38,908 bases of DNA, from positions 1-38,908 of the forward strand of contig PHET01000021.1 of NCBI GenBank assembly GCA_002841275.1, read 5' to 3'. This document shows, in pieces, positions 20,000 to 28,249 of the stretch. Below the pieces are notes generated by a model. The model was not told the origin of the DNA and made no database searches. It saw nothing but the letters and a program-made list of their open reading frames with translations. This DNA is from Actinobacteria bacterium HGW-Actinobacteria-7. GTDB taxonomy: Bacteria; Actinomycetota; Coriobacteriia; Anaerosomatales; PHET01. Both the position numbers and the translations under genes were made by a program. The first letter of the stretch is position 1; the number at the start of each line of letters is the position of its first letter.

Positions 20000-21346
20000 C
20001 TAGACGGCCGCCTCGGCGTCTGGAGGCGCTACATAACGCAACCACAGGTAGCCCAGCACGCCTGCAACCACCGAAGCAGCCAGAATCGCGACCTTCGCTT
20101 CAGTCTGGACTCCCTGGGTACGGAAGGCCAGATTCGCGACGAACAGCGACATCGTGAAACCTATTCCCGCAAGCAGCCCTGCGCCAACCAGGTGTCTCCA
20201 CGTCACACCGGAGGGCAGCGACACCACGCCCAGACGTACAGCGAGCCACGAGGCACCCACGACGCCCAGCGGTTTACCCACAACCAGACCAAGGAAGACA
20301 CCCATGCCCCACGCGTGCACTCCGCCGCCACTCGCGTCCACAAGACGGATTCCTGCGTTCACCAGTGCGAACAGCGGAAGGACTGCAAAGGCGGTCAGGG
20401 GGTGGAGCGCGATTTCAAGCCGCTGAAGTGGAGCTGTGCTGGTGATCGCTGCGTCCTTGATTCTCAAAGCCGCGTACTGTTGGTCGTAGTCTTCGAGGGT
20501 ATGTGCACCAGGGACATCCGCCTGTTCGATGACCTCGAGCTGTGTTCGTGCGAACTTCGAGAAGGCGATGGGTGAGATCCTCGCCGTGGCGGGAATCGCG
20601 AACGCGGCCACCACCCCGGCGATCGTGGCATGGATTCCCGAGTTCAGCACGCAGAACCACAGCGCGCCTGCGACAACGAAGTACCAGGTCGGCTGGTCGA
20701 TACCCATCCGGTTCATAACGACCAGCAGCAGCAGGGGAACAAGCGCGAGGAGAAGCCACGATGTGGCGATCCGCTCGGTGTAGAACAGAGCGATGACGAT
20801 GATCGCGCCGATGTCATCAGCAATGGCCAGGGCCGAGAGAAACACGCGCAGCCCCGTGGGGATCCGGGAACCGAGGAGGGCAAGCACTCCAAGGGCAAAA
20901 GCTATATCGGTCGCCATGGGAACACCCCACCCACGAGCCGCGGCGCCTCCTGAGTTGACCAGTGCGTAGATGCCTGCCGGAACGAGCATCCCGCCTAGTG
21001 CCGCCACAACCGGAAGTGCGGCGCCACGAACAGACGACAGCTCGCCAACGATGAACTCACGTTTGATCTCCAGCCCCACTACAAAGAAGAACAACGCCAT
21101 GAGCGCGTCGTCCACCCAATGTGCGAGTGACTGGTCGAGCTTCATGTCGAGCAGGAAGAACCCGGCATGCTCGTGCCAGAACGCCTCGTATGCGGGGTTA
21201 AGCGACGTATTGGCCAGCGCCAGGGCAGTGACTGTGGCCGCCAGCAGCACGAGCGCCCCTGACGTCTCCTGCTGCATGAATGCCGAGAAGCTGTCGGCGG
21301 CCCGTCTGATGGCCCCGGAGCCGCGCGGAGGCCGCATGTCTGCCAT
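20000..21346 (-). CDS. nhaA: Na+/H+ antiporter NhaA
   Basis: 448-residue NhaA antiporter that expels sodium in exchange for protons across the inner membrane and supports pH and salt tolerance. It has about twelve membrane segments. The ion-binding pair Asp177-Asp178 lies in LAIADDIGAI, and Asp147 lies in ATDIAFALG; these correspond to Asp163/164 and Asp133 of E. coli. The FFFVVGLEIKREF segment is highly typical. The C-terminal half includes a cytoplasmic loop of about 50 residues (THTLEDYDQQYAALR type) before a conserved LHPLTAF. The ATG has GGGTGAG five bases upstream. The gene lies 25 bases after the GNAT gene, so they probably share a transcript. Confidence 0.95.
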   Translation of the reverse strand: MADMRPPRGSGAIRRAADSFSAFMQQETSGALVLLAATVTALALANTSLNPAYEAFWHEHAGFFLLDMKLDQSLAHWVDDALMALFFFVVGLEIKREFIVGELSSVRGAALPVVAALGGMLVPAGIYALVNSGGAAARGWGVPMATDIAFALGVLALLGSRIPTGLRVFLSALAIADDIGAIIVIALFYTERIATSWLLLALVPLLLLVVMNRMGIDQPTWYFVVAGALWFCVLNSGIHATIAGVVAAFAIPATARISPIAFSKFARTQLEVIEQADVPGAHTLEDYDQQYAALRIKDAAITSTAPLQRLEIALHPLTAFAVLPLFALVNAGIRLVDASGGGVHAWGMGVFLGLVVGKPLGVVGASWLAVRLGVVSLPSGVTWRHLVGAGLLAGIGFTMSLFVANLAFRTQGVQTEAKVAILAASVVAGVLGYLWLRYVAPPDAEAAV

Positions 21347-21371
21347 TGCTACTCACCCTCCCAAGCGCCGG

Positions 21372-21866
21372 TCACAGTACCAGCTCCATCACGACGAGAT
21401 CGATCCAACGGTCGAACTTCCTGCCCACGGATCGCAGGTAGCCCACACGCTCGAACCCCACCCGCTCCGTCATCGTGAGGCTGGCGGTGTTCTCGGCGAC
21501 GATCTGACTCAAGAGAGCGTGATGGCCCGCTACTCGCGCGGCCTCGACCAACGCGGAAAGAACCACGGCCCCTATGCCTTGACCGGTCGCATCCGGTGCC
21601 AGATAGACCGTCACTTCGGCGGTGTGCGCCCAGCCCGGCCGAACGCCCCAGGGGGTCAGTGCGCCCCAACCCACGACCACGCCGTCCCGCTCGGCTACGA
21701 GCACCGGATGTGCGTCCCCGTGCTGCTCGAGCCACGCTTCGCGCTCCTCCACCGTCTTACCGATCGTATCGAATGTGGCGGTGGACGTGGCTATGTAGTG
21801 GTTGTAGATCGCGGCGATCACCGCTGCGTCACTGCTCTGGGCGCGCCGCATTCTCACATCGGACAT
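21372..21866 (-). CDS. GNAT acetyltransferase, phosphinothricin/methionine-sulfoximine acetyltransferase-like
   Basis: 164-residue acetyltransferase of the COG1247 group (Pat/MnaT/YncA). Its opening VRMRRAQSSDAAVIAAIYNHYI and the following STATFDTIGKTVEER are characteristic. VTVYLAPDATGQGIGAVVL (about 87-105) is the acetyl-CoA loop, and the C-terminal part has ERVGFERVGYLRSVGRKFDRWID, as in the family. Family members acetylate methionine sulfoximine, phosphinothricin or other amines; the native substrate is usually unknown. The ATG has GGAG six bases upstream. It is the first gene of the run leading through nhaA to the ATP-grasp gene. Confidence 0.85.
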   Translation of the reverse strand: MSDVRMRRAQSSDAAVIAAIYNHYIATSTATFDTIGKTVEEREAWLEQHGDAHPVLVAERDGVVVGWGALTPWGVRPGWAHTAEVTVYLAPDATGQGIGAVVLSALVEAARVAGHHALLSQIVAENTASLTMTERVGFERVGYLRSVGRKFDRWIDLVVMELVL

Positions 21867-21981
21867 CCGTGGCTCCCAAGCGTCTCAGATGGGTTCGAAC
21901 AGACAGTATATGGAGGGTACGTGAAACGTGGCCTAGGCTCCACAGCATGGCACAGCCGTTGCTCATTGTTGACCAAGAGCT

Positions 21982-22076
21982 GGGCGACCCGCCTAACCCT
22001 CCCCCCTCGGGTGGGAAACGCCCCTCACAGTGTTGCAGGACGCGCCTACCCCCCCTCAGGCGCGTCCTGTCTTTTT
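21982..22076 (+). ncRNA. 6C small RNA (two C-loop hairpins), actinobacterial class
   Basis: The strand opposite to both flanking genes carries two successive hairpins with C-rich loops, as in the 6C RNA class of Actinobacteria. The first is CCCGCC (21988-21993) with GGTGGG (22010-22015), one G-U pair, and a loop containing six consecutive C (22001-22006). It is enclosed by GGGCG (21982-21986) and CGCCC (22019-22023). The second is a 12-bp hairpin (22036-22069) whose loop has seven C (22049-22055), followed by a T run. A further small hairpin (21961-21980) lies just upstream. The 5' end is approximate; no clear promoter was found. 6C RNAs in mycobacteria and Streptomyces act as trans-acting regulators through their C-rich loops; targets here are unknown. 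Confidence 0.82.
22036..22076 (+). terminator. Intrinsic terminator, second hairpin of the 6C RNA
   Basis: CAGGACGCGCCT (22036-22047) pairs perfectly with AGGCGCGTCCTG (22058-22069) around a ten-base C-rich loop, followed by TCTTTTT (22070-22076). The T run makes it directional on the plus strand, where no protein gene precedes it. Confidence 0.88.
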
Positions 22077-22137
22077 CTCACGAGTTTCCGGGAAGCACCC
22101 TTCGAAGCGCCGAGAACCGCTTTCGGGCTGCTCCAAC

Positions 22138-22932
22138 CTAGCCGAAACGGCCTGTGATATACGACTCTGTCCGCTTGTCGGACGGGTTGGTGAACATGAG
22201 CCTGGTGTCGCCCACTTCGACCAGCTGTGCCGGCCGCTCCATTGACTCTCGCAACATGAAGGCGGTCTGGTCGCTGATGCGGGCCGCCTGCTGCATGTTG
22301 TGGGTGACGATGACTATGGTGACCGTCCTCTTCAGCTCAGCGATGGTGTCCTCGATCTGCTGCGTCGAGATGGGATCCAGGGCACTGGCGGGCTCATCCA
22401 TCAGCAGTACCTCCGGCGCCGTTGCGAGGGCACGTGCTATGCAGAGACGCTGTTGCTGACCGCCGGACAGCTCAAACGCGTGCTTCTTCAGAGAGTCTTT
22501 GACCTCGTTCCACAGGGCAGCGCGCTTGAGCGAGTCCTCGACAAGCCCGTCGAGTGCCGCGCGTGAACGCACGCCATGGGTCCGCGGCCCGTAGGCGACG
22601 TTGTCGTAGATCGAGAACGGGAACGGGTTGGGCTTCTGGAATACCTGCCCAACTCGCATCCTCAACTCGACCGGATCGACCGAGCGGTCGTTGACCTCCA
22701 CACCGTCGAGAAGGATCCGACCCCCGACCTTCACGTTGCCCAGCTCGTCGTTCATGCGGTTCAGGCAGCGCAGTAGTGTCGACTTCCCACAACCTGACGG
22801 ACCGATGAGCGCGGTCACCGCTTGTGGAGGGATATGCATGTTCACGCCGGCCACGGCTGTCTCGGACCCGTAGGTCACAGAGACATCGTGAAGGTCGAAC
22901 ATGCCGGTGGTGGTCGCGGGGGCCGTTACCAT
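22138..22932 (-). CDS. pstB: Phosphate ABC transporter ATP-binding protein PstB
   Basis: 264-residue ATPase that powers high-affinity phosphate import through PstCA. Walker A is GPSGCGKST, the Q-loop is in [16 protein letters not shown] (the PNPFP stretch is typical of PstB), the signature is LSGGQQQR and Walker B is [12 protein letters not shown]. The end SYITGRFG is the usual PstB terminus. The start is ATG 22932, seven bases inside the pstA end, with AAGGAG nine bases upstream; an in-frame upstream extension of 30 codons lies inside pstA and is not family-like. It is the last gene of pstSCAB. PhoU, often next, is absent. Confidence 0.95.
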
Positions 22933-23792
22933 CTGATCTTGCTCCTTTGCCGAGAACGCCACGTAGCTGCGGCGACGTTGATGATCCCCACTCCTGCGAC
23001 AAGCACGAGCGCGGTACCCCACACGATGTGCGGAGCGGGCTTAACGGCCTGGGTGGCCATGATGTAGAGGTGATACGGCAGTGCCATGGTCTCGCCAAAG
23101 ACCGTCGACGGAATCGGCGCGTAGAAGGCGACAGCGGTGACCAGGATCGGCGCCGTCTCGCCCGCCGCACGCGACAGACCCAGGATCGAACCGGTCACGA
23201 TTCCCGGGGCTGCGGCCGGTAGAACCACCCGGACGATGGTTCTCAGCCGAGAAGCGCCCAACGCCAGCGACGCCTGCCGAAGGTCCTTGGGGACCTGCCG
23301 CAGGGCCTCCTCGGTAGAGGTGATGATCACCGGAAGCGTCAGACACGCGAGAGTGAGTGCTCCCGCGATGACGGATCTGCCGAACCCGAACGTCAACACG
23401 AACAGCGATAGCCCGAAGAGCCCGTAGACGATCGACGGGACGCCGGCCATGTTCGCGATCGACAGCCGGACGACGCGAGTGAACGTGCCCCTGGGCGCGT
23501 ACTCGGCAAGGTAGATTCCGGCCATGACTCCGATCGGCAGCGAGAACGCAGCCGTCCAGAAGGTGAGCAGCATGGTGCCCCAGATAGCAGGCCAGATACC
23601 TCCTGCGGTCATGTTCTTGCGCGGCGGTTGGGTCAGGAACTCCCACGAGATCGACCCGGCGCCACGGTAGACGATGTAGCCGATGACGAAGAGTACGAGA
23701 CCGACGACCAGAAACGCCGCAAGCCCCGTTATGGTCTTGGCGACGGACTCGATGGCCCGTGCACGCTTCACACGCGCAGTAGACGCTTTCAT
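22926..23792 (-). CDS. pstA: Phosphate ABC transporter permease PstA
   Basis: 288-residue permease with six membrane segments. It begins with a basic cytoplasmic tail and the first helix around residues 20-42. [26 protein letters not shown] is the typical PstA extracytoplasmic loop. The EAA loop with the conserved Gly is at [21 protein letters not shown]. The start is the ATG in ATGA overlapping the pstC stop; a GTG three codons upstream is an alternative. It pairs with PstC to form the channel. Confidence 0.94.
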
Positions 23793-25787: not shown

Positions 25788-26501
25788 ATGTCGACCATCC
25801 TCATAGTCGAGGACGACCCGATCATTCGCCAGACCGTCGAGTACGCCCTCAAGCGCGCGGGGTTCCAAACCCATTCGACCGGCGACGGGGCACAAGCACT
25901 CGAGCTTGCCGAGAAGACCTCCCCCGACCTGGTTCTGCTCGATCTGATGCTCCCGGGCATGGACGGCTACCAGATCGCCGAACGCCTTCGCGCGACCGAC
26001 AAGGAGACCGGAATCATCATGGTCACCGCGTTGGACACGGATCGCGACAAGGTCCGCGGGCTCGACGCCGGCGCCGACGACTACCTGACCAAGCCGTTCT
26101 CGATGGATGAGCTGCTCGCACGCGTGCGCGCCAACCTGCGGCGCGTTCGAACCCGCGGCACACTCAACGACGACAAGAGGCTCGAACTGGGTGACCTGGT
26201 GATCGAGCCCAAGAGCTTCCGGGCGTCGGTCGCAGGAGCACCGGCGAAGCTGCGTCTCAAGGAGTTCCAGTTGCTGCACGCGATGGCGAAGCGCGTCGGC
26301 CAGCTCTGCACGCGGGAGATGCTCGCCGAGGAGGTCTGGGGCTACGAACACATGACCTCTTCGCGCACTATCGACGTCCACATCCGGCGCCTCCGCCAGG
26401 CGGTCGAAGACCCGTCTGCCTTCACCTACATCCAGACCGTCCACGGCATGGGCTACCGGTTCGAGCCTGTGCCGAAGGACCCTGACCTGGACCCATCGTG
26501 A
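25788..26501 (+). CDS. OmpR/PhoB-family response regulator (phosphate regulon candidate)
   Basis: 237-residue response regulator. The receiver domain (1-120) has the acidic pocket Asp9-Asp10, phospho-acceptor Asp52 (LLDLMLPG), Thr80 and Lys102 (LTKPF). The C-terminal winged helix (about 135-232) ends RTIDVHIRRLRQAVEDP ... VHGMGYRFEP, as in PhoB/PhoP. Its stop overlaps the kinase start as GTGA. Divergence from pstSCAB and the repeats in between make it the likely activator of phosphate uptake, called PhoB or PhoP in other bacteria. The assignment rests on context. Confidence 0.92.
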   Translation: MSTILIVEDDPIIRQTVEYALKRAGFQTHSTGDGAQALELAEKTSPDLVLLDLMLPGMDGYQIAERLRATDKETGIIMVTALDTDRDKVRGLDAGADDYLTKPFSMDELLARVRANLRRVRTRGTLNDDKRLELGDLVIEPKSFRASVAGAPAKLRLKEFQLLHAMAKRVGQLCTREMLAEEVWGYEHMTSSRTIDVHIRRLRQAVEDPSAFTYIQTVHGMGYRFEPVPKDPDLDPS

Positions 26502-28249
26502 AGCGACTCACCGGGTCACTACTCGCACGCCTGGTCCTCGGCTACGCACTCATAGCCGTCGTGTTCGCCTCGGCATGGCTGTGGTCTCTGTACGGTCCAC
26601 TGAAGCAGGCGGCGCTCAACCAACAGCAGCGTAACCTCACGGCGGTCGCCCAAGCGGCGGCACTGGTCGCGGCGCACTCCACCGAAACGCCCGGTGCTAT
26701 CGCTCGGCAGCTTGTCGCCCGCACCGACCTTCGCTTGACCATCATCGCGTCCGACGGGCGAGTGCTGGCCGACTCCAACTTCGCCGCATCAAGCATGGAA
26801 AACCACCTGCACCGACCGGAGGTCGTGGCCGCGCTCGCCGGACAGACCGGCGTGGCACGTCGGGTATCTCGAACCGAGAAGCAGGAAGAACTGTACGTGG
26901 CCGTACCTGCCTCTGTGGGCGGCGGCCGGGTCGCGCTGCGCGTTTCGCAGCCACTTGCCCAGATCGAACAGATCGCAGCCCGCTCCCGTCGCATGGGCCT
27001 GGCGCTGCTCGCTGGCTCGCTCATTCTCGCCGTCGGCATCGCGATACTCACCACACGCCAGGCGACCTATCCCATCGGAGTCCTGTCCCGGACCGCCGAG
27101 AAGATGGCAGACGGCGATCTCAGTGTCGTCGTCCCCACGGTCCCTACCGACCTCGAAGGACTGGCAGACGCCCTAGCGGCACTACGAAACCAGATGCGCG
27201 CGAGAATCGAGGCCCTTGAGTCCGAGAAGGTCACGCTCCGTACCACGCTCGATGGACTGGGCGAGGCCGTCCTACTGCTGGAGGGTGCGGACATCCGTCT
27301 GGCCAACGCGGCCGCCAGCCGACTATTCCGGACGCCAGTGGGTGGTTGGAGGAACACGCCGCTCTCCGCGGCGGGTCTCCCTGGGGGGCTTGAGGCCGCA
27401 ATCGATGCACATCGGATGGGCCAAGAGACCTACGCGTCCACCTTGCCGCCGGATCCAACGGGCCGGGTGCTTCGATTGCTCGTCGCCCCGTTGGGGCGTG
27501 GGGCGGCTCCGGGACGGACCATCGTCTCGGTAGCGGACGTCACCGAACTCGCGCGGCTCGACAGTGTGCGTCGCGATTTCGTCGCCAACGCGAGCCACGA
27601 GCTCAAGACACCGGCAGCCGGAATCCGACTACTGGCGCAGTCCGCGGAGATTGCGGCCTCGGACGGCGACGTCAAGCAAGCACTCGTGTTCGCCGGCCAG
27701 ATCGAGGCCGAGGCCGCACGGCTGCAAAGGCTCGTCGGCGATCTGCTGGACCTGTCTCGACTGGAGGCTGTGCCGGCCCCAGACGCGGTGACCGACGTGC
27801 GGCAGGTCGTCGAGAACGCTGTAGTGTCACATCGATCGGCGGCTGCGCGGAAGGGACTCGAGGTTGTCACGGACTTCTCGGCCGTTCAAGGTCGTGATGT
27901 GTACGTGGCTGCCGACAGAACCGACGTCGCTATCGCGCTCGACAACCTGCTGGACAACGCGATCAACTACACGAACGCGGGCTCGGTGCGGATAGCCGTC
28001 GAGGCCCTGGACGCACGGATAGCGATATCGGTGACCGACACCGGACCGGGCATACACCCCGAACACCAGCCACGCGTCTTCGAACGCTTCTACCGTGTCG
28101 ATAAAGGGCGTGACCGTGGCGCGGGCGGAACGGGACTCGGGCTGGCGCTGGTGCGCCATGTTGTCGACAGGAGCGGCGGATCCGTCACGCTCGATTCGAG
28201 CCCAGGCGAAGGTTCCCGATTCACCCTGAACCTGCCCAGAGCGCTCTAG
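26498..28249 (+). CDS. PhoR-like sensor histidine kinase
   Basis: 583-residue membrane kinase. It has TM1 about 10-31, an extracytoplasmic sensor about 32-165, TM2 about 167-186, HAMP about 188-240 and a PAS-like region about 245-350. The HisKA domain has phospho-acceptor His367 (FVANASHELKTP), and the HATPase domain shows DNAINYT, DTGPGI and GGTGLGLALV. The layout matches PhoR of Gram-positive bacteria. The GTG start overlaps the regulator stop, so the two proteins are made together. The sensor domain is not recognisable beyond a generic single-Cache/PAS-like size. Co-location with pstSCAB points to phosphate control. Confidence 0.92.
   Translation: MKRLTGSLLARLVLGYALIAVVFASAWLWSLYGPLKQAALNQQQRNLTAVAQAAALVAAHSTETPGAIARQLVARTDLRLTIIASDGRVLADSNFAASSMENHLHRPEVVAALAGQTGVARRVSRTEKQEELYVAVPASVGGGRVALRVSQPLAQIEQIAARSRRMGLALLAGSLILAVGIAILTTRQATYPIGVLSRTAEKMADGDLSVVVPTVPTDLEGLADALAALRNQMRARIEALESEKVTLRTTLDGLGEAVLLLEGADIRLANAAASRLFRTPVGGWRNTPLSAAGLPGGLEAAIDAHRMGQETYASTLPPDPTGRVLRLLVAPLGRGAAPGRTIVSVADVTELARLDSVRRDFVANASHELKTPAAGIRLLAQSAEIAASDGDVKQALVFAGQIEAEAARLQRLVGDLLDLSRLEAVPAPDAVTDVRQVVENAVVSHRSAAARKGLEVVTDFSAVQGRDVYVAADRTDVAIALDNLLDNAINYTNAGSVRIAVEALDARIAISVTDTGPGIHPEHQPRVFERFYRVDKGRDRGAGGTGLGLALVRHVVDRSGGSVTLDSSPGEGSRFTLNLPRAL

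Follow-up and report, generated by a model that had tools for sequence, protein, structure and literature searches.

The window analysed here is a stretch of 38,908 nt (contig PHET01000021.1) from Actinobacteria bacterium HGW-Actinobacteria-7, a member of the Anaerosomatales (Coriobacteriia) whose genome is called G000 below. Judged from comparative sequence evidence, the stretch between a GNAT acetyltransferase gene and pstB holds a real small-RNA gene that is conserved across the order. Its parts are given below, scores being those of R1, a calibrated covariance model built on 58 relatives.

21372..21866, minus strand: GNAT acetyltransferase gene, divergent neighbour (Pfam)
21948..21962, plus strand: sigma-54 (RpoN) -24/-12 element TGGCACAGCCGTTGC, an exact TGGCAC-N5-TTGC, shared upstream of the copies of order relatives
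21974..22076, plus strand: predicted small RNA, ~102 nt (R1 match 21972-22075 at 71.2 bits, covariation, fold z -5.2)
~21977..22026, plus strand: hairpin 1, bipartite stem with CTAACCCTCCCCCCTC-type loop (fold and covariation)
22001..22006, plus strand: C6 run in loop 1, putative seed (loop-column conservation)
22035..22070, plus strand: hairpin 2, terminator stem of 13 bp, loop ACCCCCCCTC with C7 at 22049-22055 (fold and covariation)
22071..22076, plus strand: intrinsic-terminator T-tract, CTTTTT (sequence)
22138..23022, minus strand: pstB, converging on the RNA; start codon provisional (Pfam ABC_tran)

The 5' end of the predicted RNA was placed 12 nt past the GC of the promoter element, which puts the transcription start near 21974, and the 3' end was placed at the T-tract. 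A sequence-only reading of the window had described two hairpins with C6 and C7 loops on the strand opposite to pstB, the second a T-tailed terminator, and both lie there, at coordinates it gave correctly to within a few bases. It was equally right that no protein gene precedes the terminator on its strand: with pstB ending at 22138 and the GNAT gene beginning at 21866, both on the minus strand, no credible coding gene is left on the plus strand, where the long frames 20970-22157 and 21596-22141 overlap the RNA but are antisense to called genes. The GNAT neighbour is retained in close relatives only. Scans of the locus for sigma-70 promoters and terminators found nothing; the terminator scan permits loops of up to 8 nt only and for that reason misses hairpin 2. 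Elsewhere in the window, phoU is absent between pstB and the RNA, and a PhoB/PhoR-like regulator-kinase pair is divergent from pstS (25788-28249). At two loci (L011 and L012, reverse strand) a third C6-loop hairpin (AACGGCCCGCCTCCCCCCAGGCGGGCCGTT) lies between the RNA and pstB, ~140 nt past the promoter.

The 117-nt stretch folds at -51.3 kcal/mol, as against -34.3 +/- 3.2 for shuffled versions (z -5.3), and none of 200 shuffles was as good. In a structural alignment of the 58 relatives, comprising 26 base pairs, the pairs were formed in 91.4% of cells and two-sided compensatory changes were seen at 20 of them (10 of 15 in helices 1 and 2, and 10 of 11 in helix 3, which forms hairpin 2). Altogether 121 cells showed such changes, compared with 31 in shuffles and 23-29 with slid partners, and the retention of one structure across the order with compensation above these controls indicates more than chance. 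The C-loops are 95-97% conserved, the stems 85%, and the modal C-run is six in each loop (58 sequences); stems drifting by compensation around fixed loops are the pattern expected if the loops are the working part.

R1 detects the RNA in 59 of the 61 Anaerosomatales genomes, mostly in two copies each. In a sample of 296 Actinomycetota genomes (292 outside the order), it matched the four that belong to the order and gave a single weak match elsewhere, which lacks C-loops. The match in genome G216 (34 bits), having neither the C-loops nor the promoter, was rejected.

The sigma-54 promoter element and the rpoN operon

The promoter element, which the sequence-only reading had overlooked, was found by lining up sub-threshold matches to the 6C model from order relatives. 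Of the 61 order genomes, 51 have the element together with two C-runs, and none has the reversed control pattern. A partly independent test used 34 copies found with an RNA model containing no promoter: 32 carry the element with at most one mismatch (21 exact, 11 with one mismatch) at a gap of 7-10 nt to the model start, a level of matching reached by ~0.2% of random stretches. TGGCACN5TTGC is not enriched genome-wide, so that its weight lies in position and conservation, and a search for an activator-binding site upstream of the promoters found no shared dyad. With the element at a fixed distance, in a genome encoding both sigma-54 and an activator, the C-loop RNA looks to be transcribed by sigma-54. 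A ClpC-like gene also has an exact sigma-54 site ~95 nt upstream (L040; G000:C18:77008-77022, minus strand).

G000 encodes a single rpoN, with AID, CBD and DBD domains, and one strong full-length Sigma54_activat protein (receiver-AAA-HTH_8), both on contig C27, where they share an operon with a gene for a PAS-HisKA kinase, in the order rpoN-kinase-activator. As the only strong candidate, this activator presumably drives the RNA. All 17 untruncated regions of the order that were examined retain this operon, and rpoN is present in 58 of 61 order genomes as against 10 of 296 in the phylum sample. In 15 of the 17 regions a further sigma-54 element lies behind the activator gene and, where a zinc-ribbon/CcdA operon can be recognised, precedes it; in G000 the site is exact (L069:6936-6950; G000:C27:12935-12949, minus strand) and lies right after the activator gene, 41 nt ahead of a small membrane/zinc-ribbon gene and CcdA. 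G003, one of two genomes without an R1 match, also has neither the post-activator site nor CcdA there. A 2025 survey describes the Actinomycetota as effectively without functional RpoN (PMC12316311), whereas this actinobacterial order keeps rpoN, the kinase and activator that go with it, and an output that can be recognised. Another actinobacterial family, f38, also has rpoN (L295 in G089; G296; G339), which in G089 lies in the same rpoN-kinase-activator operon; the C-loop RNA pattern was not found in these three genomes.

Relation to 6C RNA

The sequence-only reading had assigned the RNA to the 6C class (B11 in mycobacteria), actinobacterial RNAs of ~75-100 nt with C6-C8 loops, an assignment that the Rfam comparison did not support. 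No family exceeded its cut-off when the window was scanned at gathering thresholds and at E<=10; the best sub-threshold match was 6C itself (RF01066), which scored 23.5 bits where the cut-off asks for 47 (E 0.76 per genome), a score at chance level for a genome, so that "6C" here names a likeness and not a shown membership. None of the 61 order genomes passes the cut-off either (best 39 bits). Among controls from the phylum sample, real 6C reached 89 bits in one family (L241-L243) and Streptomyces-like 6C 43-46 bits; the cut-off is therefore strict, and the window falls well under even those.

The likeness is one of layout: both RNAs have two stem-loops, each with at least six C in the loop, and in both the 3' hairpin is an intrinsic terminator with no coding gene on its strand. 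Descent from a true 6C RNA that diverged and later came under sigma-54 is accordingly an alternative with some claim, given this identical arrangement of two C-loops and terminator, the many order genomes that RF01066 scores below threshold but as high as 39 bits, the 15-25 bits that R1 gives on real 6C genes, and the failure of Streptomyces-like 6C to reach the cut-off. We nevertheless consider it unlikely, given the chance-level score of the window and a stem architecture of another kind, in which an internal loop divides hairpin 1 into two stem parts and a longer linker of 10-15 nt comes after it, whereas 6C has two simple hairpins in direct succession. Nor was a sigma-54 element found upstream of real 6C genes; the Anaerosomatales RNA differs from them in this promoter, in its pstB and pafBC settings and in having two copies per genome.

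Layout alone is moreover no proof of descent, since similar layouts occur outside the phylum. A pattern scan for TGGCAC-N5-TTGC with two C-loops and a terminator hairpin recovered apparently unnamed RNAs in other gene surroundings from Myxococcota and Bdellovibrionota MAGs (L083, L127, L093, L099, L100). R1 scores these at 17-31 bits or not at all, values that do not establish common descent with the Anaerosomatales RNA. Two of them (L083, L127) adjoin a gene whose sequence, judged by eye and not by a family scan, looks FHA-like and sigma-54-activator-like. One pattern match, L078, is from Desulfovibrio; the matches L085, L090, L094, L098, L102, L108 and L128 were discarded, being either chance matches or truncated. 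The C-loop RNA is filed here as an uncatalogued RNA family, neither 6C nor Pxr.

Gene settings across the order

Among 76 distinct copies, 43 lie just upstream of pafB and co-directional with pafB-pafC (identity confirmed by WYL, WCX and PafC-HTH domains), 28 lie tail-to-tail with pstB, four lie upstream of a gene for a PIG-L/LmbE-type deacetylase (L081, L106, L109, L136), and one was left unassigned. The second copy of G000 is one of the pafBC type (G000:C1:227489-227588, minus strand; L233:7490-7589; R1 76.5 bits), directly upstream of pafB-pafC and preceded by a one-mismatch sigma-54 element, CGGCACGGGTATTGC. Upstream of another pafBC pair, tandem R1 matches of 51.7 and 34.9 bits (L235:5228-5426) may represent a tandem duplication. 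A small-RNA gene with its own terminator, convergent with pstSCAB, had been proposed from the window, and the 28 distinct loci bear out that position. As to the accompanying question of a link to phosphate control, synteny with pstB is conserved, but a special tie is not supported, as the sister copy at pafBC makes the phosphate setting just one of two or three that are equally conserved. The phosphate link is at present one of conserved synteny and not evidence of control.

Such strict gene settings could also signal a local role in cis: one copy would attenuate pafBC as its leader, and the other would act on the pst transcript, at its 3' end, as antisense RNA or road-block. The fixed positions of the 43 and 28 copies speak for this; however, one RNA with the same loops serves neighbours that are oriented in opposite ways, no gene lies downstream of the pst copy, and loops more conserved than stems point to pairing in trans, so that we regard a cis role as rather improbable. 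We hold it somewhat more doubtful still that the pst RNA, its pafBC twin and the zinc-ribbon/CcdA operon belong to one sigma-54 regulon, of three units or more, that serves the order as a dedicated stress circuit and in which the RNA also acts on the adjacent pafBC, possibly as the RNA partner of this Sm-fold WYL regulator. For PafBC an RNA ligand has been proposed, with 6C discussed (PMC6789036), and the present data place a C-loop RNA beside pafBC. That the hairpins are merely a bidirectional pstB terminator or a chance product of a GC-rich intergenic stretch, as the distance of less than 70 nt from hairpin 2 to the pstB stop might suggest, is refuted by comparative evidence: the pstB strand lacks a T-tract, both hairpins show covariation, a sigma-54 element is present, and the sister copy at pafBC faces no converging gene.

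Candidate targets and likeness to known C-loop RNAs

We favour, as the likely reading, a trans-acting small RNA driven by sigma-54 whose C-loops pair with G-rich ribosome sites and block translation. In response to a presumed signal, the kinase and NtrC-type activator whose genes share the rpoN operon would switch on sigma-54 polymerase at TGGCAC-N5-TTGC, yielding an RNA of ~100 nt with its 3' end at the RNA's own terminator hairpin. The invariant C-rich loops (of the CCUCCCCCCUC and UCCCCCC type) would then pair with the G-rich ribosome-binding sites of several mRNAs, and this pairing would block their translation. The pst-side and pafBC-side copies probably share most targets, differing in dose or fine specificity.

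That G-rich ribosome sites could be partners of the loops had been suggested from the window, and they remain plausible candidate targets. In a comparison drawing on a 240-kb stretch of contig C1, complements of at least 7 nt occur near the start codons of 36 of 268 genes against an inside-gene background of ~22, a modest excess that is inseparable from ordinary Shine-Dalgarno signal and so speaks against the idea more than for it; at 8 nt or more the figures are 13 against ~6 of 268 genes, about twice the within-gene background. Candidates include a ParA-like gene on C1 (147822-148619), with GAGGGGGG at -11, and nhaA in the window, with GGGAGGGT at -16. With the RNA of this order, which has cultured members (PMC9686372), the signal and targets of C-loop small RNAs become testable.

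The best reading, drawn by analogy, likens the working mode of the RNA to mycobacterial 6C/B11 and its control logic to Pxr of Myxococcus. In M. abscessus the loops of 6C/B11 pair with G-rich 5'UTRs, as proven by compensatory mutations (PMC10470900), and because the loop words are the same, pairing with ribosome sites would be the likeliest mode here too. Pxr of Myxococcus xanthus is a ~108-nt small RNA with a sigma-54 promoter and a kinase/NtrC-type pair in its control, and a single C-to-A change in its loop 1 kills function (PMC5684412, PMC5568312); that this loop has a C6 run is evident from a primer and a probe given in that work (GCTGAAGGTGGTTCCCCCCACCCCTTCAGC). The Anaerosomatales RNA resembles it in having a sigma-54 promoter and a C6 run in the first loop. 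It differs in that Pxr, from another phylum, has three stem-loops and a regulator gene directly upstream, whereas this RNA has two hairpins and the only strong activator of G000 lies with rpoN on C27; the likeness is one of promoter and loop rather than a demonstrated sequence homology. 6C/B11 and Pxr, which have been studied separately, are thereby joined in one hypothesis, in which C6 loops may be general seeds against ribosome sites.
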